Shown here one piece after another: positions 2,876 to 59,404 of a stretch of 64,000 nucleotides of DNA. Below the pieces are notes generated by a model that did not search any database, was not told the DNA's origin, and saw nothing but the letters and a program-made list of their open reading frames with translations. Location: positions 62,001 through 126,000 of the forward strand of contig OMWJ01000005.1 of assembly GCA_900314725.1 (NCBI GenBank), given 5' to 3'. The position numbers were made by a program, and so were the translations under genes. Source of the DNA: an uncultured Bacteroidales bacterium (GTDB lineage Bacteria > Bacteroidota > Bacteroidia > Bacteroidales > P3). Positions within the stretch are counted from its first letter, which is position 1. Every line of letters begins with the position of its first letter.

Positions 2876-4387
2876 ATGGCAAATACAGAAGATTTTTTTA
2901 AGAAAATAACATCACATGCCAAAGAGTATGGTTTTGTATTTCAGTCAAGTGAATTGTATGATGGACTATCAGCAGTTTATGACTATGGTCCAAATGGAGT
3001 AGAACTGAAAAATAATATTAAACAATATTGGTGGCGTTCTATGACACAGATGCACGAAAATATTGTTGGAATTGATTCTGCTGTGTTTATGCATCCTAAG
3101 ATTTGGAAAGCTTCTGGACATGTTGATGCTTTTAACGATCCACTGATAGATAACAAAGACAGTAAAAAACGTTATCGTGCCGATGTTCTAATAGAAGACC
3201 ATATAGCAAAAATAGAAGAAAAAATAAATAAAGAAATCGCTAAAGCAAAGAAACGTTTTGGAGACAACTTCAATGAAGAGCAATTCCTTGCTACAAGTGA
3301 GAGAGTAAAAGGCTACAAAGCTCAAGTTGAAGATATACATCAGCGTTTTGCAGACTTGATGAATGCAAACGATTTGAAAGGCTTGAGAGATTTGATTATT
3401 GAATTGGAAATAGCATGTCCTATTTCTGGTACAAGAAATTGGACGGATGTACGTCAGTTCAATCTTATGTTTGCTACAAAAATGGGAAGTGTAAGTGATG
3501 ATTCAGATACAATATATCTTCGTCCAGAAACTGCACAAGGTATTTTTGTAAATTATCTTAACGTTCAAAAGACAGGTAGAATGAAAATTCCTTTTGGTAT
3601 TGCACAAATAGGGAAAGCATTCCGCAATGAGATAGTTGCACGTCAGTTTATCTTCCGTATGAGAGAGTTTGAACAAATGGAAATGGAGTTTTTCTGCCGT
3701 CCTGGAACAGAAATGCAATGGTTTGAATATTGGAAACAGGAAAGATTGAATTGGCACTTGGCTTTAGGTATTCCAAAAGAGAAGTATCGTTATCATGACC
3801 ACGAAAAACTTGCTCACTACGCTAATGCTGCAACAGATATTGAATTTGAATTTCCATTTGGTTTTAAAGAATTGGAAGGTATTCATTCTCGTACAGATTT
3901 TGACCTTAAACGTCATCAGGAGTTCTCTGGAAAGAAAATACAATATTTTGACAGCGAGATAAACGAGAGTTATATACCTTACTGCGTAGAAACTTCCATA
4001 GGATTAGACAGAACTTTCCTTGCCGTTCTTTCTTATGCTTTCACAGAAGAAACTTTAGAAGACGGCTCTCAACGTGTGGTTTTGAAACTTCCAAAAATGC
4101 TTGCTCCTTATCGTTGTGCTGTTTTGCCATTGGTAAATAAAGATGGTTTGCCAGAAAAAGCAAAGAAGATAGTAGATGATTTACGTTGGTCATTCCGTAC
4201 TCATTATGAAGAAAAAGATACTATAGGTAAGCGTTACAGAAGACACGATGCTATAGGAACTCCTTTCTGTATTACAGTAGATACTCAAACTATGGAAGAT
4301 GATACTGTAACAATAAGAGAAAGAGATACTATGCAACAAGAAAGAGTAAGCCTTGATAATATAAAATCATTTATCTTACAACATTAA
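2876..4387 (+). CDS. glyS: Glycyl-tRNA synthetase (single-chain, alpha2 type)
   Basis: Class II aminoacyl-tRNA synthetase charging tRNA-Gly. The N-terminus reads FVFQSSELYDGLSAVYDYGP, the signature of the homodimeric eukaryote-like GlyRS rather than the GlyQ/GlyS tetramer. Motif 2 is visible as FRNEI near residue 250, a GLDRTFLAVL segment forms motif 3 near 380, and an anticodon-binding domain occupies the last 110 residues. The length of 503 residues is normal for Bacteroidota. An AAGGAG ribosome-binding site lies at about 2861. It is probably co-transcribed with rho and is followed by a terminator. Confidence 0.95.
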   Translation: MANTEDFFKKITSHAKEYGFVFQSSELYDGLSAVYDYGPNGVELKNNIKQYWWRSMTQMHENIVGIDSAVFMHPKIWKASGHVDAFNDPLIDNKDSKKRYRADVLIEDHIAKIEEKINKEIAKAKKRFGDNFNEEQFLATSERVKGYKAQVEDIHQRFADLMNANDLKGLRDLIIELEIACPISGTRNWTDVRQFNLMFATKMGSVSDDSDTIYLRPETAQGIFVNYLNVQKTGRMKIPFGIAQIGKAFRNEIVARQFIFRMREFEQMEMEFFCRPGTEMQWFEYWKQERLNWHLALGIPKEKYRYHDHEKLAHYANAATDIEFEFPFGFKELEGIHSRTDFDLKRHQEFSGKKIQYFDSEINESYIPYCVETSIGLDRTFLAVLSYAFTEETLEDGSQRVVLKLPKMLAPYRCAVLPLVNKDGLPEKAKKIVDDLRWSFRTHYEEKDTIGKRYRRHDAIGTPFCITVDTQTMEDDTVTIRERDTMQQERVSLDNIKSFILQH

Positions 4388-4464: not shown

Positions 4465-4570
4465 AAAAAAGAGTTGGATTTGAGAAAAAAAAGACTAAGT
4501 CTTTTGCATGTAAACATCAAGACTTTTTGTCTTAAAACCAACTCTTTTTTTGCTAAAAGTAAGACTTTTT
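4465..4570 (-). repeat. Modular intergenic hairpin repeat, copy A
   Basis: The outer arms AAAAAAGAGTTGG (4465-4477) and CCAACTCTTTTTT (4538-4550) form a perfect 13-bp stem. Inside are a palindrome AAAAGACTAAGTCTTTT (4489-4505), the linker word TAAACATCAAGA (reverse complement of TCTTGATGTTTA), and AAGAC/GTCTT arms (4519-4533). It shares these words with five other copies in the window. This copy reads on the minus strand, between glyS and clpB (both plus), and is the most diverged in its linker. Confidence 0.7.
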
Positions 4571-4643: not shown

Positions 4644-6800
4644 ATGGAAAATATGAACAATAACACAGTAGGTAAGTACCAGAATTTGGAACGTTTTGCT
4701 ATTAATCTTATAGAGAAGGCAAAAGACAATAAGCTTGACCCTGTTATTGGCAGGGATGAAGAAATAAGAAGAGTGCTGCAGATTCTTTCACGTAGGACTA
4801 AGAACAACCCTGTTCTTGTGGGTGAGCCAGGAGTTGGTAAAACAGCCATAGCAGAGGGATTGGCACAAAGAATATTTCATAACGATGTTCCAGAAAACCT
4901 TAAACAAAAGAAACTATATTCATTGGATATGGGTGCATTAATTGCTGGAGCAAAGTATAAGGGAGAATTTGAAGAAAGGTTGAAAGGTGTTGTTAATGAT
5001 GTTGTAAAATCAAATGGAGATGTAATTCTTTTTATAGACGAAATCCATACTCTTGTCGGTGCAGGAGGAGGTGAAGGTGCAATGGATGCAGCTAATATTC
5101 TTAAACCTGCCCTTGCAAGAGGAGATTTACGTGCTATAGGTGCGACAACTTTGGATGAATATCAGAAATATTTTGAAAAAGACAAGGCATTGGAAAGACG
5201 TTTCCAAATGGTTATGATTGATGAGCCGACAGTTGAAGATACTATATCAATACTTAGGGGTTTGAAAGAAAAATATGAGATACATCATCATGTTAGGATA
5301 AAAGATGCTGCAATTATTGCTGCTGCGGAAATGTCCAATCGTTATATAACCAATCGTTTTCTTCCAGATAAAGCCATAGATTTAATTGATGAAGCTGCTT
5401 CAAAGCTAAGAATGGAGATAGATTCTTCGCCTGAGGAGTTGGATGAGGTGGAGAGAAAACTTCGTCAATTGGAAATAGAACGTGTGGCTATAAAGAAAGA
5501 AAAAGATGAACAAAAGGTAGCCCAATTAACCAAGGAAATAGATGAGTTAAAACAAGAAAAAGACAAACTGTCTGCACAATGGAAGAATGAAAAAGTTCTT
5601 GTTGATGCAATATCTGAAGAAGTGAAAAAGATAGAAAACTATAAAACTCTCGCAGAACGAGCAGAACGGGATGGAGATTATGGTAAGGTTGCTGAGTTAC
5701 GTTATTCTAAGATACCTACTGCTGAAAAGGATTTGAAAGATTATCAAGATAAGCTAAAAAATCTTCAGAATGGTAATGCAATGATAACAGAAGAAGTAGA
5801 TGAAAATCATATTGCTGAGGTAGTTTCTCGTTGGACAGGAATACCTGTTACTCGTATGATGACAAGTGAAAAAGAAAAATTACTCAAACTTGAGGATGAA
5901 TTGAAAAAACGAGTGATAGGACAAGACCAAGCAATAGAAGCTATTTCAAATGCCATAAGAAGAAGCCGTAGTGGTTTGAATGACCCTAAAAAACCTATAG
6001 GTTCGTTTGCTTTTCTTGGCTCAACAGGTGTCGGAAAGACGGAGTTGGCACGTGCTTTGGCAGAGTTGTTGTTTGATGATGAGAATCTGATGATAAGGAT
6101 AGATATGTCGGAGTATCAGGAACGTTATTCTGTATCTCGTCTAATAGGAGCTCCTCCAGGATATGTGGGTTATGAAGAAGGAGGACAACTAACCGAAGCA
6201 GTAAGAAGAAAACCTTATTCTATAGTTCTTTTAGATGAGATAGAAAAAGCACATCCTGATGTATTCAATATTCTTTTGCAGGTATTAGAAGATGGACGTT
6301 TGACGGATGGAAAAGGAAGGGTGGTAGATTTTAAAAATACTATAATCATAATGACTTCTAATCTTGGCAGTGAATACTTGCAAGACGCTATTAGTGAAGA
6401 GAAAGAAAACTTTAATTCTCGCTGGATTGAAGCAGAAAAACAAGTACGGGATTTGTTGAAGAAAACAATTCGTCCTGAGTTTTTGAATCGTATAGATGAG
6501 GTTGTGGTATTCCGTCCTTTATTTGCTGAACAGATAAGAGATATAGTAAAGTTGCAAATGCAGAGACTGTTAAACACTTTACAAGAAAAGCATATTACTT
6601 TGGAATATACAACACAAGCTTTAGACTATCTTGCTACAGAAGGCTATGACCCTCTTTTAGGAGCAAGACCAGTTAAGCGAGCAATACAAAAACTTGTAAC
6701 CAATCGTTTGAGTATGCTTCTTATTGATGATAAACTTGTAAATAATAACACCATTTTAATGGATTGTGTAAATAATCAATTAGTTTTTAGAATTAAATAA
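4644..6800 (+). CDS. clpB: ClpB-type protein disaggregase lacking the N-terminal domain
   Basis: Hsp100 AAA+ unfoldase that rescues aggregated proteins with DnaK. AAA-1 has Walker A GEPGVGKT near residue 60 and [13 protein letters not shown] long coiled-coil middle domain covers about 265-390. AAA-2 has Walker A GSTGVGKT near 454, LLDEIEKAH, and a ClpB-like C-terminus ([15 protein letters not shown]). No IGF/IGL ClpP-binding loop is seen between TSNLGS and [12 protein letters not shown], so it is a ClpB rather than ClpA or ClpC. The usual N-domain of about 145 residues is absent: the protein is 718 residues and begins at the linker just before AAA-1. Upstream is only a terminator and a repeat, so this is not a missed start. 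E. coli makes a similar short ClpB from an internal start, but here no long form can be encoded. Confidence 0.88.
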
Positions 6801-10883: not shown

Positions 10884-11222
10884 TTAGAGATTGTTCTTTT
10901 TAATCAATAGTTTCAGTTCTTTATCGCTAATATTAACTGTGTCGGATTTGTCGTATATTGCGACCAATGTAATTTTTGTTTCCTCTATACTAACCAAAAT
11001 AGTGTGAGTTATGACTCTTGCACCGCCACTTTTACCTTTGCCTTTTGAAGTTATTGCAAAGCGTACCTTCCTCAAATTCTTACCAAGCTGAGTACCAATG
11101 AATGGATTTTCTTTCAATTCTTCAAGAAACGCAGAGTAATCTTCCCGCATTGAAGGATAACGCTTTGCCAGGTATTTCAAATCTTTGGCAAAATCGGGAG
11201 TAGCAACAATTCTACAGTTCAT
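10884..11222 (-). CDS. RelE/ParE-superfamily toxin
   Basis: 112-residue protein with the RelE/ParE fold pattern: N-terminal strand (CRIVATPDFAKDLKYLAKRYP), two helices, then basic strands (NLRKVRFAITSKGKGKSGGARVITH) and a C-terminal LVAIYDKSD strand. Toxins of this group act as ribosome-dependent mRNA nucleases or gyrase inhibitors; which one applies here cannot be read from the sequence. Its start overlaps the antitoxin gene by 11 bp, the usual type II toxin-antitoxin arrangement with antitoxin first. Confidence 0.75.
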   Translation of the reverse strand: MNCRIVATPDFAKDLKYLAKRYPSMREDYSAFLEELKENPFIGTQLGKNLRKVRFAITSKGKGKSGGARVITHTILVSIEETKITLVAIYDKSDTVNISDKELKLLIKKNNL

Positions 11223-11445
11223 TAAGTAAATCCTCCGCAGTTATACCTTTCAGTTCTCCGCCTTGCATTTGATGTAGCTGGTTGAAGGCGTGGTCTATCT
11301 TGTCAAGTGCCTGCTTTTTTTCAGCGTTCTTTTGTTCAATAAACAGAGAACGGACGAAATCGAGCATTTTTCTTAACATATCTTCGCTATCCAACATTGG
11401 ATTCATTTCCCTGAAAAGCTCTTCTCTTAATTGTATAGCCTCCAT
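11212..11445 (-). CDS. Antitoxin of the RelE/ParE-type pair
   Basis: 77-residue, helix-rich acidic protein starting MEAIQLREELF and ending in an acidic tail (GITAEDLLNEL) of the kind that wraps the toxin. The ATG at 11445 is chosen over the upstream TTG at 11487 because a -7 promoter box lies at 11465-11472, between the two, leaving only this start on the transcript. It overlaps the toxin gene and would bind toxin and probably its own promoter. No clear DNA-binding domain is visible. Confidence 0.65.
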   Translation of the reverse strand: MEAIQLREELFREMNPMLDSEDMLRKMLDFVRSLFIEQKNAEKKQALDKIDHAFNQLHQMQGGELKGITAEDLLNEL

Positions 11446-11464
11446 AATACTCCATATTTTTTTG

Positions 11465-11472
11465 CAAAGGTA
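11465..11472 (-). promoter_or_regulatory. -7 promoter box for the toxin-antitoxin operon
   Basis: On the minus strand this reads TACCTTTG (TAnnTTTG), 19 bp before the antitoxin ATG. Confidence 0.55.
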
Positions 11473-11555
11473 CGATTTTTTATTCAAATCGCAATATAAG
11501 GAAGATTTTTTTTGTTTTATTTCAGTCTTTTCCTCGGTATTTTCTTTGTAAATAA

Positions 11556-11663
11556 GAAAAAGACTTGATGTTTAGGTGAAAAAGAGTTGATTTTAAATTT
11601 TTAAATCTTGATGTTTAGGGTATAAAGACTTGGTTTTAATTTTTTAAAACCAAGTCTTTTTTT
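11556..11663 (+). repeat. Modular intergenic hairpin repeat, copy B
   Basis: Contains CTTGATGTTTAGG twice (11564-11576, 11607-11619). A 16-bp perfect hairpin, AAAGACTTGGTTTTAA (11624-11639) with TTAAAACCAAGTCTTT (11644-11659), is followed by a T-run. The last 64 nt differ from copy D (35793-35856) at three positions only. The hairpin looks like a plus-strand terminator but sits between two divergent genes with no plus-strand gene before it. Confidence 0.8.
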
Positions 11664-11816: not shown

Positions 11817-12680
11817 ATGAAAATAGTAGTTTTAGCAAAACAAGTACCTGATACAAGGAACGTTGGTAAAGATGCCATGACTCCAGAGGGTACAGTAAAT
11901 AGACAAGCCTTGCCTGCAATTTTTAATCCTGAGGATTTGAATGCATTGGAAATGGCTTTGGAAATTAAAGACAGAGTACCAGGAACAGAGATAACTGTTG
12001 TTACTATGGGACCTTCTCGTGCAGCAGAAATAATAAGAGATTCTATGTTTAGAGGAGCAGACAATGGAGTTGTTCTTTCTGACAGAAAACTTGCTGCAAG
12101 TGATACATTAGCAACTTCTTACGCTATTTCACAAGCAGTTAGAAAAACAGGAAAATTTGATATAGTATTTGGTGGAAGACAAGCTATAGACGGCGATACT
12201 GCACAAGTAGGACCTCAGACAGCAGAAAAACTTGAAATACCTCAAATAACATACGCAGAAGAATTGGTTGATGTTGATGAAAAGTCCATAACTATCAAAC
12301 GCCGTTTGGAAAGAGGTGTGGAAGTAGTTAAATCTGCTTATCCTCTTTTGATTACCGTGCATTCTTCTGCTAAACCTTGCAGATTCTATAATGCTAAACG
12401 TGTTATGAAATATAAACATGCTTTCTCTGCTTCAGAAGCCAAGGAAAGAAATCTTGATGTAAATGTATGGAATGATTTTCCTTACTTGAAGATAGAGGAA
12501 TGGAGTGCAGCAGATGTAGAGGCTGAGGATAACAGAATAGGTCTTGCAGGTTCTCCTACAAAAGTTAAGAAAATAGATAACGTTGTTCTTACTCAAAAAG
12601 AAAATGTTACCATTGAGCCAACAGAAGAGAACTTGGACAATTTAGTAAAGAACTTAATAGATACACATATAATAGGATAA
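11817..12680 (+). CDS. etfB: Electron transfer flavoprotein, beta subunit
   Basis: 287-residue EtfB beginning MKIVVLAKQVPDT, with the family motif regions ALEMALEIKD (about 45-55), VTMGPSRA (about 62-69) and FGGRQAIDGDTAQVGPQ (about 118-135). It binds AMP or a second FAD and carries electrons between the acyl-CoA dehydrogenase and its redox partner. It is followed after 4 bp by etfA and then an acyl-CoA dehydrogenase, so the three form one operon. In an amino-acid fermenter this set most likely serves crotonyl-CoA reduction; whether it bifurcates electrons to ferredoxin cannot be decided by reading alone. Confidence 0.93.
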   Translation: MKIVVLAKQVPDTRNVGKDAMTPEGTVNRQALPAIFNPEDLNALEMALEIKDRVPGTEITVVTMGPSRAAEIIRDSMFRGADNGVVLSDRKLAASDTLATSYAISQAVRKTGKFDIVFGGRQAIDGDTAQVGPQTAEKLEIPQITYAEELVDVDEKSITIKRRLERGVEVVKSAYPLLITVHSSAKPCRFYNAKRVMKYKHAFSASEAKERNLDVNVWNDFPYLKIEEWSAADVEAEDNRIGLAGSPTKVKKIDNVVLTQKENVTIEPTEENLDNLVKNLIDTHIIG

Positions 12681-15926: not shown

Positions 15927-18900
15927 TTAGAATACAATCTTAAGTGAAAAACCTCCTTCTGTTGTTGAGTTAGGATAAGAAGATGAGATATAAGGAGAAT
16001 TTATTGTGATGTCAAAGAATGCTTTTAAGACTATTTTCTCCGTCAATGAATATTCACCAGAAAGGTTTAGAGTTGTAATTTTTGTTCCTGCAGATATGAT
16101 ATTGACATTTTGGTCAATCTTTCTAAGTATTGTTTTGTTAGTAGTTATAGAAAAGTCTGCTTTAAGAAGTATATCGCTTTTGAATTGACGAGAGGATTGA
16201 CCTCCTGTACGAATGCTGATGGCAACATCTTTAAATCTGTAACCACCTCCGAAAACAAAACCAAAACGATTTATTTCTGTCAGCTGAGTGTTGGAGAATG
16301 AAAGAGAAAGAGAACGTTCCTTCTTGAACTCAAAGTTGAGTTCTAATGAGTTTTTAAGGAATATTTCAATCTTAAGCAAAGGACTTAATTGTTCAGAGAT
16401 GATTATTTGGTCAATACTCTGTTTTGGAACAAAATTGTCGTTGATTGAGTTTCTTATCCATTCTGTTCCATAGTCATATGTTGAAACATCAGGAACAGAA
16501 GTATTGGTATAGAAGGAAGATATTTTGTAGTTGCACACATAGTTGGAAGAAATAGTTACAGAGTTAGCCCATTTCTTAACCCATTCATTCTTGCCAAGAC
16601 CGGTATAAGTTATTTTGAAGTTTGGCATTGGCATACTGATGAAAGGAGATAGCGATTGTTTTTTAGCATTCTTTCCTGAGTAAGCCGCAAGAAAGGCAGG
16701 TATGAGTACTTGTTGAGATGTTGCACCGTAACCGTCAGGATAATAGTTCCCATTAACGGTATCTAATACAGGGTCGCCAAGATAATCGGAATGATGTTTT
16801 CTGTTCTCTGTTGCCAGACGTTCTGCTATCGTGCTACGGTTTCTTAGGAATTGTTCAAAAGTTTCACTGACGTTTTTGTCATCCATTCCCTTAAACATAG
16901 TACCTAAAGCAAAGAATGAAATTTCATAAGTTCCGTTGCGATAAGGTGTTGTCGGACCTATAATTCTTCCATAGTCAGCATTATATTTGTAGTATGCACT
17001 ATACTGTTCGCTTTCTGTTTTCTTGAATATAACGTCTATATTGAAGTCTTTTATTATTTCAAACTTAGCTGTTGCATTTAAATTCCGACTCATTTTACTT
17101 ACGTATGCGGCATTAAGCATGGTGTCTGTACTAAGCCAGCCTTTGCGAATAGCGTTTGGCATGATGTTCTTTTGAGAGCCAAAAACAAAACCTAATCCTG
17201 GAGCCCAATCACTATTAGGAGTCATTCCCAAGTATTTTGCTCGTGGCATAAAACCAGGAATATAAATACCATTATTAAGAGTGTAGTTGAAGTTTATGGA
17301 TTTTAGACTTGTAGCCAGACGAATTGAAAAATAGCCTAAATCTTTTAACCATTGAAGAGAGCTCTTTGTGCTGTCAGCCGTAGAGTCTGCAGCATCTTTT
17401 TTCTCTTCAGGTTTATTTCTGTCAGGAAGACGAGGTGAAGATGTTATTTTATCCTTATTCTTATTCTTATTCTTATCTCTTGCATCGTAAGCTTTCTTTA
17501 TGAATGGTACTTTATTGTAAATAGTTCCGAAGGTAGCAGTTGAGTTGTAGTTTATTCTGCGGTTGTTTTCTATTGTGTTACCAAGTTGAGCTGTTGCTTC
17601 TGTTGCAGATTGGAATGTATATTCTCCTCTGTAGGTAGTTGTTAGTCTTAACCAAGAAAACATAGGTATTTTATTAAGAGGGACATTAAAGGTTACTTGT
17701 AGGCTTTGGTGATATTGTTGAGCCTTACCTAAATCTCTAATAGATTGCCAAACGCTATCTTTTTTTGCTTTTGTGTCTAAACGCCCTCTTGGTTCTTCTA
17801 TTAGAGCATTTATTCTGGCAGCATATTCTGTACGTATGTTCTGAGTTATATCCCATTTTAAACCGTATTCTCTGTTCCAATAGAAATTCTGATAAAACAT
17901 AGGCTCCATTATAACCAAGCCCTGTGATTTGCTTCTAAGTTTGCTCTCTTGGAAATCTTTCATCATATCACTTCTAAAGGTTATGTTCTTAGGCTTGAAG
18001 TGAAGAGTAAAGTCTCTTAGTATCGCAAAAGATTTATTTTTAAACATAGGTACTTTAGAGAAAGGTTTCCAACCTCGGTCTTGGATGTCGTATTGATAGC
18101 CAAGCATAAGTCTATTTTGTGTTCTTTCATCATATTCCACATCTACGCTTCTGCTGTAGTTTTTTGTATAGGAATAAGAAAGATTAAAATTCTCTATATC
18201 ATAAAAATGTCTGTGCGCAGCAGCATTACCAACACGCTCTTTCCTTACATTCATGAAAGAGAAGTTAGTTATGGTGTTGTAATCTTGAACCATATGACGA
18301 ATAGAGTCTCGTTCTCTTTCTGAACGGTATGATAGTAAATCATCTTTAAGGAACACATCGGGGTCTAAAGGATTGTAACGAGGATTACTTATCGTTTGAG
18401 AGTAATCAAAATGGAAAGGAAGTCTGATACCAAATCTATCAGGGAAGAATTTTCCTATTTCCAAATTTGTTGCAATATCAAAAGTAGAGACGTTATCTTG
18501 AGAAATAGTGGAAATAGTTTGTTCAATAGTTCCAAAACCTGCTGATTTATAAGAACCACTTAAGGCTAAATCTCCAAGATCTGCCAGATTGGTGCGAAGA
18601 GTTCCTCTTGCAGCCCAACCTCTGCTTCTGTCAAAATCTGTTAGACGCAATTCATTAACCCATACTTCTACGCTCTTAGGAAGCATATCATCGCCATCAT
18701 AAAGGTTTTGTTTCTTAGGATTTCTGACACCTATCATAAGAACCTTTACATTGGCAATATTAGGAGAACCGATGACTGTTATTTTTCTTCCATTGATGTA
18801 TTCAGAATAAGGAATGCTTGTAGAATAGTTAGTGTTACCGTTACGAATAAGAGTATTACGATTAGTCTTTACTTTGACAATGGAATCAAGGTCAATAGTT

Positions 18901-21900
18901 ATGTTGTTAGCTTCTGGCCATACAACTTTATTTTCTAACATAGAAGTATGCCAAGGAGTGAAGCTTAATGGAAGTTCATATTCATAATAGTTGGAAGTAA
19001 AGTCTGTTCCCAAACGAACAAAAACAGAAACCTCTCCATCATTATAATCATCAAATTCATTTACTTTCTCACCATGGACAAACATCCTTAGTTTATTGTA
19101 TTGTCGCATGTCAAAATCCATAGTCTTGTATATAGCACGAGCGTCTCCGTCGGCTAAGTTAGTAACCTTAATAGATAATGATTGTTCGTTTTGTTTTACA
19201 TAACTTGTGGTTGAATATTGTTTTTCTCTTTCAATTCCTGGAGGAAGACAATAAGCAACAGGAGAACGTTTTCCATTTTCTTCTATATTTACAGTACCTA
19301 TTGTTAGTGTTGTGTTTTCTGATAGTGTTCCTGTAGGTGTTTCTCCCCAAGCAAGAAGATTATCATTATATTTTCTCCATTCAGCACTTACCAATTCAAA
19401 AGAAGCAAAACGGAGGATAACAGGTTGTTTAAATCCTCTTAGGAAGGTACGAATAAATCTGATACTTTGGAATCCGTCTATTGTTCCAACTTTTCTGTTT
19501 GGCTCCCTAACAGGAATTTTAAAGTGATACCATTTACAATTAGTTGTACCTCCATTGGCTAAGGAAACATTATAGGCCTCTTGTATGTCATCAATATAGT
19601 TCTCTCCTACATTCATGTGCATAGGATCTAATTCTATCACATACTCATAATAGTTTTCTGCTTCGGAAAGAGTGTTGTCTTGATTGATGTCTTCCACATT
19701 AGGTAGGGCAGTAGCTTGTTGTGATTCTCCTGTAGTAGTAACCGAAGAGTTGCCTTCTGGATTGTTGTATCTTTTATATCTATCCGTTATTTTTACATTA
19801 TTTTTGTCATACTCATTAGAACGGAAATACATAAAATCATCTGCAGAAGGGTCTTTTATTAGTTTTTGATAAGCATCAGGTGTTAGTTGGTTTTGATATT
19901 TTTGCAAGAAGTTCTCAAAGAAAGATTGTTCATCCGTTGAATTGATACCGTCATAACCTATATCTTGATATTGACGAGAATTGTTGTCATTTGAGAAAGC
20001 ATTCACAACGGCTTGTAATCGTGGAACACGTCCCCAAATAGTTGTATCTACATCTGTTACAGTAGCAGAAGTAGGCAGACCATTCTCATAACTTTTTCTT
20101 CCGTCTCTAAGAATGTCTTCTGAAATATCTCCGAGATTAAAATAAAGTTTTCCTCCTTCACTGTCAGGTGCTTCAATGAAAGGATCCATGAGCCAAAAAT
20201 CTATAGACTCAATATTTGCTGCTTCAAAATCTGTTGCGTCCAACTTTCTCATTATTCCTCCCCAGCGAGTTTCAGGATTGTTAAGATAGCCGTCAGCATC
20301 TAATCCAAACGACCAAGGAGAAAGAGTGTCGTAGTTATAAGGTCCTCTTTCCTTTGGATAAAAAGCTATATTAAATTCATGTATATTATTCCTTTGTCCT
20401 TGAACAAGTTCTTTGTTGGGATAGACTTCTGATTCAAGAATCTCTCTTGCATACGGCTTACTCTTGTCATCGTTATTGATGTTGCTTGGAGCTGCTCCTG
20501 TGTAGAAATTATCATCTATACTATACCAAGCAATCTTCGCTCTGTTGAATCCGTAAGCAAGACCACTATTTTTAAATGTTTCAGGAAATAGAGTTCCTGG
20601 TGCGTTGAAATCCTGAGGAGTGGAAGCAAGAAACCAAGAATTAACAGCCCTCAAATCATAACTTCTTTTGCTTGTTTCAAAATCGTCAATATAAGAAGTA
20701 CCAGAAGAACCAATTACAGAAGGATTGCCTGGAATAAACTCAGCTATCTCACCTTCAAAATTTAGAGTGGATGGAGCATTTGTGCTATAAAAAGGTAACC
20801 AATCTATAAGCTTAGTGATAAAAGGCACTTGTTTTGTAAGATGTAAGTCCAATCCTATAAGACTATTGCTGATAGGTTCTTCTCCATAATTGACTTTTTG
20901 AGTTATAGGTGTTTCGTGCAAGTGCATAAAGGTTGCTCCTAAGGACAATTCGGGAGAGAAAGTGTAAGTGCCTCTTAAACCTAACATCCACTTAGTAGTC
21001 ATTGAGAAGGTAGAGTTGCTTTCTGTAGAAACGGTGATAGGAGTTCCAGAGGAAAGATAGGCTCCGTTAATTATCTTTACTCGTCCCATAGCATAATCTA
21101 CAGTGTAATCAACACCTTCTTGAAGTTGTATTCCTCCAGCCATAACGGTTACACTGCCTTGAGGAACATTTACAGCACCAAGGCTTATTTCTCCATTAGA
21201 AGAAGATGAACGGTATCGTCCTTCTAAGTAATATTTGTTGTTTTCTGTGTATTGTTCAGCTTGAGAACGAGTGAGAGTATATAGGGAGTCAAAACAATAT
21301 TTGTTAGCAAATTCATCATCATTCAAGGCAGCTCTAAGGTCTTTTCCGAAAGGTTCAACAGTAGGGAAGTAAATCAAACCTTTAGAAGCATTTATCAAGC
21401 CTGCATTTGCAGAAGAAAACTCTACAAAGTCAAAGACACCATCTGGATACATATTCTGTCTTGTATCCATTCTATCTAATCCAAACACTTGAATAAGAGG
21501 TATGGCTCTTAAAGGACCTTCATTAAAGTATCCTGTTTCAATGCCTTCTTCATCACCCAAGTACATGATGTTTAGCCTGAAATCTTCTGAAGTTATCTGC
21601 GAAGAACCAATCCAATAAATGTTCTTCATCATCAACTTCCACATCGGATTTCTTACATTAAGAGTGGAGGATTTAAGTAGTTTTACAACCAAAGTATTAG
21701 GGTCTGTTATACCTTCGTCAGAAAATTCTCCAACTTGATAGACTGTAGTATCTCCAACTATTTGATATTGGAAAGCAACGGCTAAAACTTGGTCGTTAGA
21801 CAAAGCCTGATTCAGGGAAATGAAACCTAATTGAGAGTTGAACGTGTATTCACTTTCAGAAAGTTTTCTTGCACTCTCCACTTTTTCAAAATCCTGTCCA

Positions 21901-23120
21901 GAAACAAAACCCATACCTTGCAGAGTGTTGCCTACTGTGTTTATGTTTCTAAGGTTATTAGGATTGACATTAACTAACAAATCATTAGATAGATAGTTAT
22001 CTGGATACTCCGAACCATAAGGATTGGTAATATAAGGTGTTTGTCCAAAAGGATTCTTTTCTCCTAAATCAGCGAAAGCAACAATATTTCTGTTGTTATT
22101 CACCGCACTTCCAATATTTGTTCTCCAGACCTCTATCTTAGTTATTACAACATTGCTGTTTATGATAGGAAGAGTCTGCATTGCTTTGTTGTAGTTGTCG
22201 TAGAAATACTGAGCAAGAAAGAAGTGCTTGTTTTCGTCATATTCGTCTGCTTTGAAATTAAACTCTTGAGTCTGAGCTCCATTTTGTACTGTTATGCTTT
22301 GGCTTTCACTTTTTTGTTGAGAACCTATAACATCTAAAAGCAAATTACCAAACTTGAGTTTAGCCTTAATGCCAAAAAGATTTTGTACGCCTGTTATAAG
22401 CGTAGTAGGTAAAGGAAAAGACACATTGCCTACCTCCAAAAGTTGCAGAATGTCATCTTCCTTGCCCTCATATTTAAGTTTCAATAACTCTTTTTCAAAG
22501 TCAAACGTAGCACCACTATTATAGTTGAATGTAAAACTTATGGCCGTTCCTATCTGTGCCAAAGCATTAAACTGAATGTCCTCATCAAAATCAAACCTTG
22601 TAACACTTCTTGCATTTTCATTTAAGGAAAGATTCTCATTTTTATTATTAACCAAGGCAAACTTCAAATCCACACCACCTGAAAGCCTTATGTCAATATC
22701 TTGTCCTCCGAATATCTTATCCATCCACTCACTATTTATCCTAAGTTTTGGAATCAAAGACGACAGACTTTCATCATTTTGTAGTAAAAGAGCATTGCCT
22801 GATTTGTTCTTCCAATAGGAATCAATCATTCTATCTAAATCATACTTCTGATATTCTTCAAAAGACAATTTTCTGGTCTCCAAGATAACATCACCAACCC
22901 TTTTAAACTCTATGTATTCATTATTTACAGGGTCATATTCTACTGTGGTTGTTATATTTTGTGGTTCGTTAAGATACAAAGGACTGTCTGAGTTTTCTTT
23001 TACAGGGAAATGAAGAGAGTCTGGATTAGATATAAAACCATTGCAAACGCTTGCAAAAACGTTTGAGCAAGTAAGAATAATCGTAGTTGTTATTAATATA
23101 CAAACTCTTTTTATTGTCAT
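15927..23120 (-). CDS. sprA: Type IX secretion system outer-membrane translocon SprA (Sov)
   Basis: Giant 2397-residue outer-membrane protein with an N-terminal signal peptide (residues 1-23). It contains the repeated SprA core segments, including FNYNSGATFDFEKELLKLKYEG near 205-225, GTSYIDDFETSKRSYDL near 805 and GFRSIRF-like strands. It ends in a long run of barrel strands finishing with FSLKIVF. SprA forms the 36-strand pore through which T9SS cargo with C-terminal sorting domains leaves the cell. Its presence implies a type IX system; gldH in this window is a further component, the rest are elsewhere. ruvA lies 10 bp upstream on the same strand, a pairing seen in other Bacteroidota. Confidence 0.95.
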   Translation of the reverse strand: MTIKRVCILITTTIILTCSNVFASVCNGFISNPDSLHFPVKENSDSPLYLNEPQNITTTVEYDPVNNEYIEFKRVGDVILETRKLSFEEYQKYDLDRMIDSYWKNKSGNALLLQNDESLSSLIPKLRINSEWMDKIFGGQDIDIRLSGGVDLKFALVNNKNENLSLNENARSVTRFDFDEDIQFNALAQIGTAISFTFNYNSGATFDFEKELLKLKYEGKEDDILQLLEVGNVSFPLPTTLITGVQNLFGIKAKLKFGNLLLDVIGSQQKSESQSITVQNGAQTQEFNFKADEYDENKHFFLAQYFYDNYNKAMQTLPIINSNVVITKIEVWRTNIGSAVNNNRNIVAFADLGEKNPFGQTPYITNPYGSEYPDNYLSNDLLVNVNPNNLRNINTVGNTLQGMGFVSGQDFEKVESARKLSESEYTFNSQLGFISLNQALSNDQVLAVAFQYQIVGDTTVYQVGEFSDEGITDPNTLVVKLLKSSTLNVRNPMWKLMMKNIYWIGSSQITSEDFRLNIMYLGDEEGIETGYFNEGPLRAIPLIQVFGLDRMDTRQNMYPDGVFDFVEFSSANAGLINASKGLIYFPTVEPFGKDLRAALNDDEFANKYCFDSLYTLTRSQAEQYTENNKYYLEGRYRSSSSNGEISLGAVNVPQGSVTVMAGGIQLQEGVDYTVDYAMGRVKIINGAYLSSGTPITVSTESNSTFSMTTKWMLGLRGTYTFSPELSLGATFMHLHETPITQKVNYGEEPISNSLIGLDLHLTKQVPFITKLIDWLPFYSTNAPSTLNFEGEIAEFIPGNPSVIGSSGTSYIDDFETSKRSYDLRAVNSWFLASTPQDFNAPGTLFPETFKNSGLAYGFNRAKIAWYSIDDNFYTGAAPSNINNDDKSKPYAREILESEVYPNKELVQGQRNNIHEFNIAFYPKERGPYNYDTLSPWSFGLDADGYLNNPETRWGGIMRKLDATDFEAANIESIDFWLMDPFIEAPDSEGGKLYFNLGDISEDILRDGRKSYENGLPTSATVTDVDTTIWGRVPRLQAVVNAFSNDNNSRQYQDIGYDGINSTDEQSFFENFLQKYQNQLTPDAYQKLIKDPSADDFMYFRSNEYDKNNVKITDRYKRYNNPEGNSSVTTTGESQQATALPNVEDINQDNTLSEAENYYEYVIELDPMHMNVGENYIDDIQEAYNVSLANGGTTNCKWYHFKIPVREPNRKVGTIDGFQSIRFIRTFLRGFKQPVILRFASFELVSAEWRKYNDNLLAWGETPTGTLSENTTLTIGTVNIEENGKRSPVAYCLPPGIEREKQYSTTSYVKQNEQSLSIKVTNLADGDARAIYKTMDFDMRQYNKLRMFVHGEKVNEFDDYNDGEVSVFVRLGTDFTSNYYEYELPLSFTPWHTSMLENKVVWPEANNITIDLDSIVKVKTNRNTLIRNGNTNYSTSIPYSEYINGRKITVIGSPNIANVKVLMIGVRNPKKQNLYDGDDMLPKSVEVWVNELRLTDFDRSRGWAARGTLRTNLADLGDLALSGSYKSAGFGTIEQTISTISQDNVSTFDIATNLEIGKFFPDRFGIRLPFHFDYSQTISNPRYNPLDPDVFLKDDLLSYRSERERDSIRHMVQDYNTITNFSFMNVRKERVGNAAAHRHFYDIENFNLSYSYTKNYSRSVDVEYDERTQNRLMLGYQYDIQDRGWKPFSKVPMFKNKSFAILRDFTLHFKPKNITFRSDMMKDFQESKLRSKSQGLVIMEPMFYQNFYWNREYGLKWDITQNIRTEYAARINALIEEPRGRLDTKAKKDSVWQSIRDLGKAQQYHQSLQVTFNVPLNKIPMFSWLRLTTTYRGEYTFQSATEATAQLGNTIENNRRINYNSTATFGTIYNKVPFIKKAYDARDKNKNKNKDKITSSPRLPDRNKPEEKKDAADSTADSTKSSLQWLKDLGYFSIRLATSLKSINFNYTLNNGIYIPGFMPRAKYLGMTPNSDWAPGLGFVFGSQKNIMPNAIRKGWLSTDTMLNAAYVSKMSRNLNATAKFEIIKDFNIDVIFKKTESEQYSAYYKYNADYGRIIGPTTPYRNGTYEISFFALGTMFKGMDDKNVSETFEQFLRNRSTIAERLATENRKHHSDYLGDPVLDTVNGNYYPDGYGATSQQVLIPAFLAAYSGKNAKKQSLSPFISMPMPNFKITYTGLGKNEWVKKWANSVTISSNYVCNYKISSFYTNTSVPDVSTYDYGTEWIRNSINDNFVPKQSIDQIIISEQLSPLLKIEIFLKNSLELNFEFKKERSLSLSFSNTQLTEINRFGFVFGGGYRFKDVAISIRTGGQSSRQFKSDILLKADFSITTNKTILRKIDQNVNIISAGTKITTLNLSGEYSLTEKIVLKAFFDITINSPYISSSYPNSTTEGGFSLKIVF

Positions 23121-23129: not shown

Positions 23130-23720
23130 TTATAAGCGTTTCAATGCCTCTTTTATTAAGTTTTCTACATCCGTTTGGCTGTCTTCCTTTAGAATCTTGT
23201 CTAAGGTTTTTTCTATAATGATTTTGTTGAAGCCTAATGTCTGCAATGCTAATAACGCTTGTTCTCGGTTTTTATTGTCTGTTTGACTTGTGGTGTTGGA
23301 TATTTCAGACGAATAATCCCATTTTTGAACCTTATCTTTTAAATCTACTATAACTCTTTGAGCAGTCTTGTTACCTATTCCTTTTATGGCGTTTATGGAT
23401 TTAAGGTCTTCATCCCTTATAGCTTTGACCAATTCATCTGAGTTGAGAGAAGAAAGTATCACCCTTGCAGTATTAGGTCCAATGCCACTAACACCTATTA
23501 ATAAACGGAACAACTCTCTTTCTTTTTCATCGGCAAAGCCATAAAGCACCTGCATATCTTCTCTTACAATAAAATGAACAAAAACCTTACCCTCTTTCTT
23601 CTCTTTTATCTGAGAATAGGTGTTGAGACTAATCTCTATTTTATAACCCACGCCGTTGCAATCTACAACCACGAAGGACGGATTTATCAAAGCAAACTTA
23701 CCATTCAAATATTCGTACAT
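23130..23720 (-). CDS. ruvA: Holliday junction branch migration protein RuvA
   Basis: 196-residue RuvA. The N-terminal OB domain (MYEYLNGKFALINPSFVVVDCNGVGYKIEIS, about 1-65) is followed by two helix-hairpin-helix motifs (LIGVSGIGPNTARVILS near 87 and INAIKGIGNKTAQRVIVDL near 122). A C-terminal three-helix domain (about 150-196) contacts RuvB. It binds four-way junctions during recombinational repair. It lies immediately upstream of sprA and is probably co-transcribed. ruvB and ruvC are not in the window. Confidence 0.95.
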   Translation of the reverse strand: MYEYLNGKFALINPSFVVVDCNGVGYKIEISLNTYSQIKEKKEGKVFVHFIVREDMQVLYGFADEKERELFRLLIGVSGIGPNTARVILSSLNSDELVKAIRDEDLKSINAIKGIGNKTAQRVIVDLKDKVQKWDYSSEISNTTSQTDNKNREQALLALQTLGFNKIIIEKTLDKILKEDSQTDVENLIKEALKRL

Positions 23721-23929: not shown

Positions 23930-24030
23930 AAAAAAAAGACTTGGTTTTAAAAATTTAAAACGAAGACTTTTTACCCAAAAGACTTAGTTTTTACACCCAA
24001 AAGACTTGATCTTTTTTTTGAAGGATCAAG
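23930..24030 (-). repeat. Modular intergenic hairpin repeat, copy C
   Basis: Arms 23933-23951 and 23954-23972 pair at 17 of 19 positions (GACTTGG against CGAAGAC types). CTTGATC (24005-24011) pairs with GATCAAG (24024-24030). ACCCAAAAGACTT occurs twice in tandem (about 23973 and 23995). It shares arm and linker words with the other five copies and lies between the divergent genes ruvA and the DUF4175 protein. Confidence 0.65.
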
Positions 24031-24173: not shown

Positions 24174-27100
24174 ATGAGCAACAAAATAATTGACAAGCTT
24201 AATGACTTTATACGTTCTTATTACAAAAATCTCGTAATAAGGGGTTTGATTTATTCGTTGTTGCTTTTGGCTGTTTTTTTTGTTGTGCTTGCCTTAATTG
24301 AAACTTATAGTTGGCAAGGTCAATTGACTCGTACTATTATCTTTTATTCTTATATTACTCTTGCTGTCGGGGTTTTAGTGTTTTGGGTTTTTATTCCTTT
24401 GGCGAAGATATTTTCTATAGGTAAGACGATTTCCTATAGGCAGGCAGCAAAAATAATAGGTGAGCATTTTGTGGAGATAAAAGACAAGTTGCTTAATCTT
24501 TTAGAATTGCAAGAATTAGCTCAAGCAAATGAAGAGAATACAGTAGGCAACACTCTTCTTGCAGCGGCCATAGAGCAGAAGACACTCTCGCTTTCTCCTT
24601 TTTCCTTCCATAAGGCAATAGATAAGACAAAGACAAAGAAATATGCTAAGGTGCTTGTTGGAGTTGTGGCAATTATTGTTGTGTTATCTCTGTGCTTTCC
24701 AAGACTATTTTCTTCAGCTGCAACTCGTTATATTCATCATAATGTTTTCTTTGAAAAGCCAGCACCGTTTAGGTTTATTTTTGATGAAAATGTTAAGGTT
24801 TTGCAGCATAATGATGTGGATATAAAAGTGAGAGTGGAGGGGGATATGTTGCCAGATAAGGTTAATATTTTGATAAATGGGCAGAGTTTAGAAATGAAAA
24901 AGAAAGATAATACTCATTTCCTTTACACTATTTCCCAAATTCAAAAGAGTACTATGGTGCAGTTTGAGGCTGTAGGTGTGGAAAGTAAAATATATACCAT
25001 AAAAGTAAATCCCAAACCCGTACTGACAGACCTTAAAGCCGAAGTTGTTTATCCTAAATATACTCGTTTAAAGAATGAAACTCTTAATAATGTTACTGAT
25101 ATTTCTGTTCCAGAAGGCACGCAAATCAAATGGGTAATAAGAAGTAAAGATACAAAAGAGATTCTTTTCAAGAGTAATGACAATATAGTTAAACTCTCTG
25201 TTTTGAAGGATATAACAAACCATTCTGTAAAATATCTTTCCTCTCAAAGCATTAGCATAAAGATGAAGAACTTTTCTACTCTTTCAGAAGATAGTTTGGC
25301 ATTTTTTGTCAATACCATAAAAGATGAAAGACCGCAGATAGCAGTAATAGAAGAGAAAGAGAGTGATTTGGCAGATAAGGTTTATTTTAGGGGACAGATA
25401 AAAGACGACTATGGTTTCTCACGTTTGGAGTTTCATGTAAAGATAACAAATTCTAATGGCAATACTTATGTGGATAACAAAAAACTTTTGCCTATTACTA
25501 CAAATGAAAATGCTCAGGAGTTCTATTATCTGTTAGATTTAGATGAATACAAGATTAACGCAGGAGATAAGGTGGAGTATTATTTTGAGGTGTGGGATAA
25601 TGATGGTATTCATGGAGCAAAAAACACAAGAAGTCAAAGTTTTAATATAGCAATCCCTGATAGTAAAGAGGTGGAGAAAAAGGTAGAAGACAACACTAAA
25701 GACATCAGCAAACAAACAGACAATGCATTGAAAGAACTTAAGGATTTGCAAAAGAAAATCACTGAACTTACCAAACGTTTGGCAGAGAATAAAGAACTGA
25801 CATGGAGAGACAAACAGGAGTTGGAGAACCTGAAAAACAAGCAAGAGAAGATAAGAGAGAATATTCAGAATATACAAGAAAAGATACAAGAGAACACAAC
25901 CTTAGAGGAAAAGTTTAATAACAATATTGATGAAGACCTGATAAAAAAACAGACGGAAATAGAGAACCTTTTCAAGTCTTTGGAGAATAAGGAACTCAAG
26001 GAATTAATGAAGCAGATAGAACAACTGACCAAGCAGCAGATGGATAAAGATAAGATGAATGAGGGCTTAAAGAATTTGCAGATGCAGAATGATGAGTTGT
26101 CAAAACAATTGGATAAGAATTTGGAACTATATAAGCGTTTGGATGTTGAAAAGAATATTAATGATGTTGTAGATAAGCTTAAAGAGTTGTCAAAAAAACA
26201 AGAATCACTTGCAAAGGAGACCTTGAATAAAAAATCTGACAAGCAAGACCTCTCTAAAAAACAGGAAGAGATAAACAAAGAGTTTAAGGATTTGCAGAAA
26301 AAGATGAATGATATTCAAAAGAAAAATGCAGACTTGGATGATCCTTTTAAGTTCAAGAGAGAGAAAGATAAGGAGAACGCAATAAATAAAGACCTCAACG
26401 ATGCGAAGAATAATATAGATAACAACAAGAATAAGGATGCTGCAAAGCAACAGCGGAATGCCTCAAAACAGATGCAGGCAATGGCTGACAAAATAGAGAA
26501 AGAAATGGACGATAGTCAAGAAGAACAACTTGCAGAAGATATAGATAATGTCAGACAGATACTGAAGAATCTTGTTACCTTATCAAAAGAAGAAGAAGCC
26601 TTGATATACGCTTCTCAAAAAACCGCTGTCAATGACCCTGCTTACCAAAATATAATCAATAAGCAGAATATCATCAAGGAGAGTATGAAAGATATATCTG
26701 ATTCCTTATATAATATTAGCAAACGTCAGCCCCAAGTAAGCAACACTATACACGAAGAGACATATAAAGTAATAGAAAACATCAACGCTTCTCTTGATAA
26801 GCTTTTGAAATACAATCAGAGCTATTACAATTCAATGCATAATACAGGGGCAGCTACTTCTCAACAATATGCTATGACTTCTATGAACAATCTTTCGTTG
26901 CTTTTGGCTGAGAGTCTTGATAATATGAACAAGCAACAGAACCAATCAAAGAAAAAGAATGGAAAAGCTTCTCAACAGTGCAACAATCCATCTTCTTCTG
27001 GAGGTAAAAAGGATATAAAGAATCTCAAACAGATGCAAGAAGCTCTGAATAAAGAGATTCAACGTCTGCAAAAAGAACTTGAAAAGCAGGGCAACAAACC

Positions 27101-27551
27101 ACGAAAGATAGGAGAGGGGAAACAACTGAATGAAGAATTGGCTAAAGCAGCAGCAAGACAAGAGATGATAAGAAAGATGATGGAAGAATATCTTAAAGAA
27201 ATGAAAGACGAGAGTGGAAAGTCAGTTGGAGGAATGAATAAGGTACTGAAGAATATGGAGGATACGGAAAAAGATATTGTAAATAAAAGAATAAATGCTA
27301 ATACAATAAAACGCCAGAACGAAATACTTACTCGTATGCTTGAAAGTGAGAGGGCAGAGAAGAAAAGAGATAAGGATAATGAGAGAAAATCTACCTCAGG
27401 AGTTGATAAAAAACAAAATAATGATAAAAATTTTGAAGCCTTTAATAAGTTGAAAAATAGAGAAATGGAACTCTTTAAGGAGATACCTCCTGTATATTCT
27501 TCTTATTATAAGACAAAAATTAATGAATATTTTTATAACTTTGGGCGATAA
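24174..27551 (+). CDS. DUF4175-family membrane protein with long coiled coils
   Basis: 1125 residues. Two transmembrane segments near the N-terminus (about 22-42 and 54-76) and a third near 160-180 are followed by a region of beta-rich repeats (about 200-490). Residues 495-820 are an almost unbroken Lys/Glu/Gln coiled coil, and a low-complexity, basic coiled-coil tail reaches about residue 1080. The architecture matches the large DUF4175 proteins of Bacteroidota, whose function is unknown. The bulk of the protein would lie in the periplasm. It has its own promoter and overlaps or abuts the next gene, then ybeY. Confidence 0.75.
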   Translation: MSNKIIDKLNDFIRSYYKNLVIRGLIYSLLLLAVFFVVLALIETYSWQGQLTRTIIFYSYITLAVGVLVFWVFIPLAKIFSIGKTISYRQAAKIIGEHFVEIKDKLLNLLELQELAQANEENTVGNTLLAAAIEQKTLSLSPFSFHKAIDKTKTKKYAKVLVGVVAIIVVLSLCFPRLFSSAATRYIHHNVFFEKPAPFRFIFDENVKVLQHNDVDIKVRVEGDMLPDKVNILINGQSLEMKKKDNTHFLYTISQIQKSTMVQFEAVGVESKIYTIKVNPKPVLTDLKAEVVYPKYTRLKNETLNNVTDISVPEGTQIKWVIRSKDTKEILFKSNDNIVKLSVLKDITNHSVKYLSSQSISIKMKNFSTLSEDSLAFFVNTIKDERPQIAVIEEKESDLADKVYFRGQIKDDYGFSRLEFHVKITNSNGNTYVDNKKLLPITTNENAQEFYYLLDLDEYKINAGDKVEYYFEVWDNDGIHGAKNTRSQSFNIAIPDSKEVEKKVEDNTKDISKQTDNALKELKDLQKKITELTKRLAENKELTWRDKQELENLKNKQEKIRENIQNIQEKIQENTTLEEKFNNNIDEDLIKKQTEIENLFKSLENKELKELMKQIEQLTKQQMDKDKMNEGLKNLQMQNDELSKQLDKNLELYKRLDVEKNINDVVDKLKELSKKQESLAKETLNKKSDKQDLSKKQEEINKEFKDLQKKMNDIQKKNADLDDPFKFKREKDKENAINKDLNDAKNNIDNNKNKDAAKQQRNASKQMQAMADKIEKEMDDSQEEQLAEDIDNVRQILKNLVTLSKEEEALIYASQKTAVNDPAYQNIINKQNIIKESMKDISDSLYNISKRQPQVSNTIHEETYKVIENINASLDKLLKYNQSYYNSMHNTGAATSQQYAMTSMNNLSLLLAESLDNMNKQQNQSKKKNGKASQQCNNPSSSGGKKDIKNLKQMQEALNKEIQRLQKELEKQGNKPRKIGEGKQLNEELAKAAARQEMIRKMMEEYLKEMKDESGKSVGGMNKVLKNMEDTEKDIVNKRINANTIKRQNEILTRMLESERAEKKRDKDNERKSTSGVDKKQNNDKNFEAFNKLKNREMELFKEIPPVYSSYYKTKINEYFYNFGR

Positions 27552-34912: not shown

Positions 34913-35623
34913 TTATTTAACCTTGTCTTTATATTGTTTTATGGTGTTCTCCAAACCTAAGTAAAGAGCATCACAAATAAGAGCATGACCTATTGAGACT
35001 TCAAGTAAGTTAGGTATGTTTTGACAGAAGTATTGCAAGTTTTCTAAAGACAAATCATGACCAGCATTTAAGCCTAAACCACATTCTTCTGCTATTTTTG
35101 CAGCATAAACAAATGGTTTTATTGCTTCTTCTTTGTTTTTTGCAAAATCTTCTGCGTAGGATTGAGTATAAAGCTCCACTCTATCAGCACCACATTCTTT
35201 AGCTCCTCGTATCATATCTTCATTAGCATCAACAAACAAAGATACTCTGCAAATAGGTTTCAGTTCTTTTATTATCTTTTGTAGAAATTCCTTGTTTTTT
35301 ATTGTATCCCAACCGTGATTTGATGTCAATTGGTCAGGAGCGTCAGGCACAAGAGTTGCTTGAGCAGGCTTGATGTCCTTGATTATTTGTATGTATCGTT
35401 CGTCTGGATAACCTTCTATGTTGAATTCAGTTGTTACAATTTGTTTTAAATCATAAACATCTTTTTTTGTTATATGTCTTTCATCAGGACGAGGATGTAC
35501 CGTTATTCCTTCTGCACCATATTTTTCGCAGTCTTTTGCTACTTGAATAAGGTCTGGATTATTGCCTCCTCTTGCATTTCTAAGAGTTGCTATCTTGTTT
35601 ATATTAACACTAAGTCTTGTCAT
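34913..35623 (-). CDS. pdxJ: Pyridoxine 5'-phosphate synthase
   Basis: 236-residue TIM barrel beginning [20 protein letters not shown], with HPRPDERHI near 42-50, [21 protein letters not shown] near 98 and the C-terminal [10 protein letters not shown] and [15 protein letters not shown]. It condenses 1-deoxyxylulose-5-phosphate with aminoacetone phosphate to form pyridoxine phosphate. PLP is the cofactor of lysine 2,3-aminomutase encoded nearby. First gene of a minus-strand series with its own -7 box. Confidence 0.95.
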
Positions 35624-35748: not shown

Positions 35749-35857
35749 AAAAAAACATCAAGAGTTGATGAAAAAAGACTTGGTTTTAAAAATTTAAATC
35801 TTGATGTTTAGAGTGTAAAGACTTGGTTTTAATTTTTTAAAATCAAGTCTTTTTTTA
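35749..35857 (+). repeat. Modular intergenic hairpin repeat, copy D
   Basis: AAAGACTTGGTTTTAA occurs twice (35775-35790 and 35817-35832), and either copy can pair with TTAAAATCAAGTCTTT (35837-35852, one G-U pair). AAACATCAAG (35753-35762) can pair with CTTGATGTTT (35800-35809), while its CATCAA can instead pair locally with TTGATG (35765-35770). A T-run follows on the plus strand. Both neighbouring genes are on the minus strand, so the element is antisense to its surroundings. Confidence 0.8.
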
Positions 35858-44052: not shown

Positions 44053-44154
44053 GAAAAAAGTCTTCGTTTTGAGAAAAAAAGATCAAGTCTTTACACCCTA
44101 AACATCAAGATTTAAAAAATTAAAACGAAGACTTTTTTCATCAACTCTTTTTTT
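44053..44154 (-). repeat. Modular intergenic hairpin repeat, copy E
   Basis: A perfect 18-bp inverted repeat (44053-44070 with 44122-44139; arm core GTCTTCG/CGAAGAC) encloses the family linker, which on the minus strand reads AAATCTTGATGTTTAGGG and TGTAAAGACTTG. A further word, AGAGTTGATGAAAAAAG on the minus strand, is shared with copy D. It lies between the divergent sigma factor and DUF349 genes. The 439-bp gap otherwise holds only the two promoters and a palindrome. Confidence 0.8.
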
Positions 44155-59068: not shown

Positions 59069-59165
59069 AAAAAAACATCAACTCTTTTGGGTAAAAAGAC
59101 TTGATGTTTAGGGTGAAAAGAGTTGATCTTTTTTTCTCAAATCCAACTCTTTTTTTACGAAGACT
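59069..59165 (+). repeat. Modular intergenic hairpin repeat, copy F
   Basis: AAACATCAA (59073-59081) can pair with TTGATGTTT (59101-59109). ATCAACTCTTTT (59077-59088) can instead pair with AAAAGAGTTGAT (59116-59127), whose AAAAGAGTTG can also pair with CAACTCTTTT (59144-59153) ahead of a T-run. These pairings exclude one another. It carries the family word CTTGATGTTTAGGGTG and lies between the divergent mntA and the 25-codon gene. Confidence 0.75.
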
Positions 59166-59247
59166 TGGTTTCTACAATTTGGGATGAAAAAGTAAGTTTT
59201 TTTAATAAAATTTTCATACTCTGACACGATTTGGCAGAATGGTAATG

Positions 59248-59375: not shown

Positions 59376-59404
59376 CAGACAAGATTTTTGCGTTTGCTGT
59401 TTTT
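59374..59404 (+). terminator. Terminator of the 25-codon gene
   Basis: AGCAGAC (59374-59380) pairs with GTTTGCT (59392-59398, one G-U pair), followed by GTTTTT. Confidence 0.55.

Follow-up and report, generated by a model that had tools for sequence, protein, structure and literature searches.

Evenly spaced arrays of helically phased words between the genes of an uncultured Bacteroidales bacterium, possible landmarks of its chromosome

Results

Six word arrays in a 64-kb window

The DNA analysed (the window) is a stretch of 64,000 nucleotides of contig OMWJ01000005.1, from an uncultured Bacteroidales bacterium. An initial annotation had described six modular hairpin elements in it, and all six were found at their positions; array coordinates are given below without strand. 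Array 1 (4465..4570, with words at 4468, 4490, 4512, 4533 and also 4554) stands between co-directional genes for a class II tRNA synthetase (2876-4387) and a ClpA/B-type AAA+ protein (4644-6800). Array 2, the cited copy (11556..11663, words at 11559, 11581, 11604, 11624 and 11645), separates the divergent ORFs 11212-11487 (−) and 11817-12680 (+, ETF domain); by eye, Bacteroidota-type −7 motifs (TAnnTTTG) flank it on both sides, outside the array. Array 3 (23930..24030, words at 23935, 23956, 23978 and 24000) also lies in a divergent gap, between 23130-23720 (−, RuvA) and 24174-27551 (+, DUF4175). A single ORF of 2397 aa occupies positions 15927-23120 on the minus strand.

Array 4 (35749..35857) has words at 35774, 35797, 35817 and 35838, preceded at 15 nt by one more flanking word, at 35759, and is placed between the co-directional 34913-35623 (−, PdxJ) and 35941-36390 (−). 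Array 5 (44053..44154, words at 44057, 44078, 44098 and 44121) likewise carries a flanking word at 15 nt, at 44136, and is bordered by the divergent 43386-43934 (−, sigma-70-like) and 44374-46326 (+, DUF349). Array 6 (59069..59171, words at 59073, 59095, 59117, 59138 and 59159) lies between ORFs 58651-58968 (−) and 59403-59933 (−, GNAT). That the copies occur on both strands and between genes, as had been noted, was borne out.

The short words common to the copies occur in the window far above expectation. With up to 3 mismatches, the linker matched 6 times, against 0.06 expected from shuffled sequence; five of the six matches fall within arrays (the 11.6-kb copy has two) and one is a stray at 29273. 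The 4.5-kb and 23.9-kb copies have no intact linker. For the arm word, 26 matches with at most 2 mismatches compare with 4.1 expected after shuffling. The description of the elements as not tandem holds between copies, but each copy is in itself a tandem array of words with a pitch of 21-22 nt. The term hairpin fits only a minority of arrays, the outermost adjacent word pair being well paired in 22 of 52.

A genome-wide family

Of the 1.96-Mb genome, 724 kb (37%) were read as contiguous stretches, and the remainder was checked via model matches. Arrays were detected with a word matrix plus the linker, Markov shuffles serving as control, and genes were called by our own ORF-plus-hexamer prediction. 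The 724 kb yielded 56 arrays, against 0 in the shuffles, and 55 of the 56 have their centre in a gap between predicted genes. Over the whole genome, 29 linker matches with at most 1 mismatch were scored (0 for the reversed-pattern control), and one arm pattern gave 209 matches against 1 for its control. A sequence-only model made from 31 copies gave 139 matches in the 1.96-Mb genome, some of which are both strands of the same site; it carries no structure, since a covariance model aware of structure requires consensus pairs and the alignment offered none. The genome-wide search found further copies, and the family does not look like ordinary terminators. The modular intergenic family proposed by the initial annotation is fully supported, its six copies being part of a genome-wide set. 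An exact 21-mer scan of GTDB genomes returned no match in a collection that may not include the present record.

Arrays are about 85-135 bp long and hold 3 to 10 words, mostly 4 or 5. Each word is about 15 nt long, degenerate and found in either orientation, with the form AAA-N3-TT-N2/3-TTT (for example AAAGAGTTGGTTTT, AAAGACTTGGTTTT, AAAGTCTTCGTTTT, AAAGACTTAGTCTTT and AAAGACTTGATGTTT). The distance from word to word is 21 nt (92 cases) or 22 nt (62 cases); the array edges add a second class, of 15 nt (16 cases). Words are joined by shared linkers of 6-7 nt. The longest A-runs and T-runs form the two ends of the array, and GC letters (GGGTG/ACACCC) often mark the central joint. In the first sample of 38 arrays, 15 were in co-directional, 13 in convergent and 10 in divergent gaps. 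Once chance matches were removed, decayed single words and partial copies were rare (54-58 clusters with at least 2 words, 55 with at least 3). At four loci (L007, L017, L018 and L029), arrays begin right after a near-identical gene end (...AAAGTTCATTATCAGAAACTTATAAAACAATAA), which resembles a type IX secretion C-terminal signal.

Arrays are evenly spaced along the chromosome

The 51 intervals between neighbouring arrays had a mean of 11,972 bp and ranged from 4.5 to 24.5 kb, with a CV of 0.385. Random placement among intergenic gaps, simulated under four weightings, gave CVs of 0.81-0.91, and 0 of 4000 draws per weighting reached the observed value. No interval was shorter than 4 kb, against 9-13 expected under random intergenic placement. 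This evenness was robust to changes of threshold and of word number, except in the most stringent and smallest set (18 arrays) and for single words, whose matches are mostly chance. Two controls looked random: for array-less gaps of more than 200 bp (n=55) the CV was 0.98, with 11 short intervals, and for promoter-like sites it was 0.92. Independent re-detection with a dictionary in the same genome gave a CV of 0.36. Outside the 724-kb sample, 1 of 34 intervals between model matches was below 4 kb, against 7.4 expected for random placement, and the CV of these 34 was 0.64, which would be expected of a model that fails to detect some of the arrays. We conclude that the arrays are placed far more evenly than chance, at about one per 12 kb.

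Related species share the layout but use other words

The model built on the genome under study (G000) found clear, divergent matches in three congeners, in sequences that have the 21-22 nt pitch with other words. A vocabulary-free search then detected arrays in G001, G007, G008, G010, G012 and G013, as well as in G022, of another genus; the family member G018 was essentially array-free in the same search. Congeners carry arrays of the same pitch in different vocabularies: AATCTGCG units in G001, AAAACAAAG in G008 (with AAAACCAAG/AAAACCAAC in G000), ATAATGSCATTAT and AAAACGAAG in G012, and several word types in G013 (A6-CCTGC-T6, GTGTGA, GCAAAACSGTTTTGC and TTTTCTGAA). One word, AAAACGAAG, recurs in six genomes, namely G000, G007, G008, G010, G012 and G022.

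Other repeats were seen beside the arrays. Near-perfect palindromes ATAATGSCATTAT at 21-22 nt form arrays apart from the AAAACGAAG type in G012 (L109, L110). A second dispersed palindromic word, GCAAGTCCGACTTGC, adjoins arrays at four loci of G007 (L093, L094, L095 and L097). G015, of another genus in the same family, has long intergenic palindromes made from units of about 11 nt (GTTGTCCA...), half the array pitch (L126 at about 12413, L127 at its start and at about 13394).

At its lowest threshold, vocabulary-free detection picks up noise when the genome is AT-rich, as are G012 and G022, and a dictionary-based second pass was therefore used to measure spacing. With its species dictionary, G008 showed evenly spaced arrays (mean about 7 kb, CV 0.28-0.38, 0 of 1000 random draws). 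A non-significant trend to even spacing was obtained for G012 (CV 0.66-0.70, P 0.06-0.09) and G013 (CV 0.71-0.80, P 0.09-0.26), and none by CV for G001 (0.97-0.99). Short intervals were below expectation in G001, G012 and G013.

Array positions turn over

Synteny was compared over 2-38 conserved adjacent gene pairs per species pair, at 56-71% protein identity. Where one species has an array between such genes, another may have almost no gap at all: 228 bp in G012 against −16 bp in G000, 153 bp in G000 against −1 in G012, and 145 bp in G001 against 8 bp in another species. Array positions are therefore not conserved, and in the two best cases spacing stays even although positions turn over. Orthologous array-free gaps are thus available, in species that are too diverged, at this level of identity, for target duplications to be read. 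Inspection of flanks revealed no terminal inverted repeat, leader or tail in G000.

Inverted flanks are present in G013. In L098, L100 and L101 they are TTTTTGCCGATTCAGAAAAG...CTTTTCTGAATCGGCAAAAA, which surround arrays of A6-CCTGC-T6 or A6-GTGG-T6 words and may represent a terminal inverted repeat. A second type of enclosure is seen in L099 and L102; in L102 its two ends are TTGCGAAAGTAAT and ATTACTTTCACAAAGG.

Helical phasing and predicted DNA shape

Periodicity of A/T-tracts and GC near 11 bp was well above background in four genomes, with periods of 11.2 (G000), 10.7-10.8 (G001), 10.6 (G012) and 11.1 (G013). No 10-11 bp harmonic was found in G008, despite its evenly spaced arrays, and flanking words spaced at 15 nt fall out of the helical phase. 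A wedge model predicted an end-to-end contraction of 0.866 for the arrays, against 0.927 for shuffled sequence and 0.938 for other intergenic DNA, so that by this one model predicted curvature is raised at arrays. In its simple version, a pure 10.5-bp curvature model is a poor fit, given the 11.2-bp period and the missing harmonic of G008.

Discussion

Relation to known repeats

The searched literature, which covers few subscription papers, yielded no description of Bacteroidota word arrays that are phased and evenly spaced. BrickBuilt, a MITE/minisatellite of Porphyromonas gingivalis (PMC4596501), resembles the arrays in several ways: it belongs to a Bacteroidales species, is intergenic, has no Rfam match and consists of tandem 23-nt units (21-22 nt in the arrays) in variable number; predicted long stem-loops are listed among the likenesses. 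It differs in having 19 copies built on one 23-nt unit, and a leader and tail with IS5-like terminal repeats (PMC4596501), whereas the arrays occur about once per 12 kb, use several words in both orientations, are evenly spaced and have no identified leader, tail or terminal inverted repeat in G000.

BIME-2/REP elements of E. coli (PMC6379681) are, like the arrays, intergenic composites of short palindromic units in alternating orientations, for which a contribution to genome organisation has been proposed. REPs differ from the arrays in sequence and in being 20-40 bp palindromes tied to RAYT transposases; REPs are recognised by GTAG or CGTC tags at the base of such palindromes (PMC3733652). 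The words of the arrays (AAAGASTTGG, AAAGTCTTCG, AAAGACTTAGTCTTT etc.) lack such a tag, and a Y1-type (RAYT/IS200-like) transposase, PF01797, was found in 0 of 14 genus genomes, compared with 5 of 14 control genomes. A RAYT-driven REP or BIME, one form of the REP reading considered at the outset, finds no support on either ground. To our knowledge, even spacing of BIMEs has not been reported.

Two further systems are similar at the level of DNA shape. Phased A-tract clusters of E. coli and cyanobacteria (PMC4132750, PMC516772) share with the arrays a length of about 100 bp and A/T-tract phasing of about 11 bp, and have been suggested to encode, through structure, how the nucleoid folds; they are diffuse and largely also coding, whereas the arrays are discrete, word-based, intergenic and evenly spaced. 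Strong gyrase sites follow, in E. coli, a symmetrical motif of 130 bp whose GC/AT arms are helically phased with a period of 10.75 bp, which suggested indirect readout, and BIME-2 repeats are among the sites of gyrase (PMC6379681). By analogy, this motif would be the closest functional counterpart of the arrays. It differs in belonging to no repeat family of fixed vocabulary, and its period departs from the 11.2 bp of G000 and has no equivalent in G008, which counts against the reading that we favour below.

Alternative explanations

A family of structured small RNAs, which the initial annotation had entertained, is disfavoured. Rfam gave no match at the arrays, and RNAalifold found zero consensus base pairs, an alignment test that is weak alone owing to word shuffling. 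Adjacent words were complementary in 17.7% of pairs, near the 13.2% of pairs drawn at random from the dictionary, and divergent gaps hold arrays too. The same pairing values make it quite improbable that the arrays are bidirectional intrinsic terminators or transcription insulators, in which hairpins of the outer words, with their A- and T-runs, would stop transcription from both sides. Nearly every array does have a left A-run and a right T-run, terminator scoring picks out the cited copy as terminator-like, and convergent gaps are relatively rich in arrays (13, for 20 convergent gaps that measure 120 bp or more). On the other hand, 10 of 38 arrays are between divergent genes, and hairpins are not enriched in convergent gaps: outer words were well paired in 8 of 16 convergent, 8 of 20 co-directional and 6 of 16 divergent gaps. 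The arrays of G001 and some of G013 are all-direct, and therefore unable to form terminator stems. An intrinsic terminator would need a GC-rich stem and a following T-run at every copy, and with a well-paired outermost pair in 22 of 52 arrays, termination as a general function is disfavoured. CRISPR is also disfavoured, as the words vary and invert and the short linkers are shared. DNA uptake sequences with species dialects are a highly improbable reading. Such sequences are, like the arrays, genome-wide short words; dialects and terminator-like pairs are known in Neisseriaceae, and even spacing was claimed by Karlin et al. for those of Haemophilus (PMC3630211, PMC1939737). They are single words of about 9-12 nt, with thousands per genome, and lie largely in coding DNA in H. 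influenzae, where the figure is 65% (PMC1939737). The arrays are far sparser, phased, typically of four words and intergenic only, with several unrelated words per genome, and density, word diversity and layout together led us to disfavour this reading.

The turnover of positions brings up a selfish or non-autonomous mobile repeat, spread in a MITE-like manner or by recombination or gene conversion, whose even spacing would result from the purging of close copies. Arrays are gained and lost, orthologous gaps being tiny in other species, words are shuffled between copies, and some G013 arrays stand between inverted repeats. Simple spread predicts random rather than even spacing, and the missing Y1/RAYT transposase, the rarity of decayed copies, and the lack of any identified terminal inverted repeat or target duplication in G000 make this explanation rather unlikely. 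Somewhat better placed, if still doubtful, are binding-site arrays whose partner would be a protein dedicated to them and specific for their sequence, such as an organiser of the ParB/Noc/MatP kind or another architectural protein, the recognition word drifting into species dialects. Helical spacing would let dimers stack on one face, and even spacing would again imply a chromosomal role. The words are near-palindromic (AAAGACTTAGTCTTT, ATAATGSCATTAT, AAAACGGCGTTTT), the pitch is 21-22 nt throughout, and their strong conservation within a genome, together with the recurrence of AAAACGAAG across species, points to some sequence-specific recognition. The very different vocabularies within one genome (G013), the AATCTGCG units of G001 and the want of a candidate protein argue against it.

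DNA-level landmarks of the chromosome

The reading that we favour, tentatively and with a little less than even confidence, is that the copies are neither genes nor RNAs nor terminators but landmarks of the chromosome acting at the level of DNA, perhaps organisers of supercoiling or of the nucleoid that a gyrase- or NAP-like partner would recognise by their helically phased A/T tracts. Among the four readings first put forward, a REP-like chromosome element or insulator is the best supported, because of the even 12-kb spacing. Since this spacing is independent of gene orientation, it suggests that the DNA itself has a function in the chromosome, and a two-turn pitch with changing words points to shape reading. 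Words that are roughly palindromic, flanked by A- and T-runs and repeated every two helical turns would present themselves on the same face of the helix. Because words differ between species, recognition would pass largely through DNA shape, by phased bending or wrapping. DNA gyrase or a nucleoid-associated protein might wrap or bend the array, or the array might sit at the tip of a plectoneme, phased A-tracts having been located at plectoneme loops (PMC4132750). The result would be about one supercoil anchor per 12 kb. This is near the size of a supercoiled domain in E. coli, for which 400-500 domains are reported (PMC3820752), and therefore about 10 kb each. An even distribution, if kept by selection, would mean that the arrays act in chromosome organisation.

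In a wider and more speculative form, the arrays would be a new class of chromosome-spacing elements: intergenic word arrays phased at two turns, about one per topological domain, kept even by selection while gained and lost at each site, their vocabulary rewritten between species because shape and spacing carry the function. This is a possibility that we put forward with some reserve. Organisation by gyrase or a NAP, a dedicated word-reading protein and a mobile repeat are not mutually exclusive in origin.

What bounds the supercoil domains of bacteria, and whether the genome encodes their spacing, has yet to be settled. If the favoured reading is true, an evenly spaced family near domain size would provide discrete, movable landmarks with which the bounding of domains may be tested, and the arrays would be a repeat family that keeps its layout while replacing its sequence, and that repeat searches based on sequence similarity would miss.
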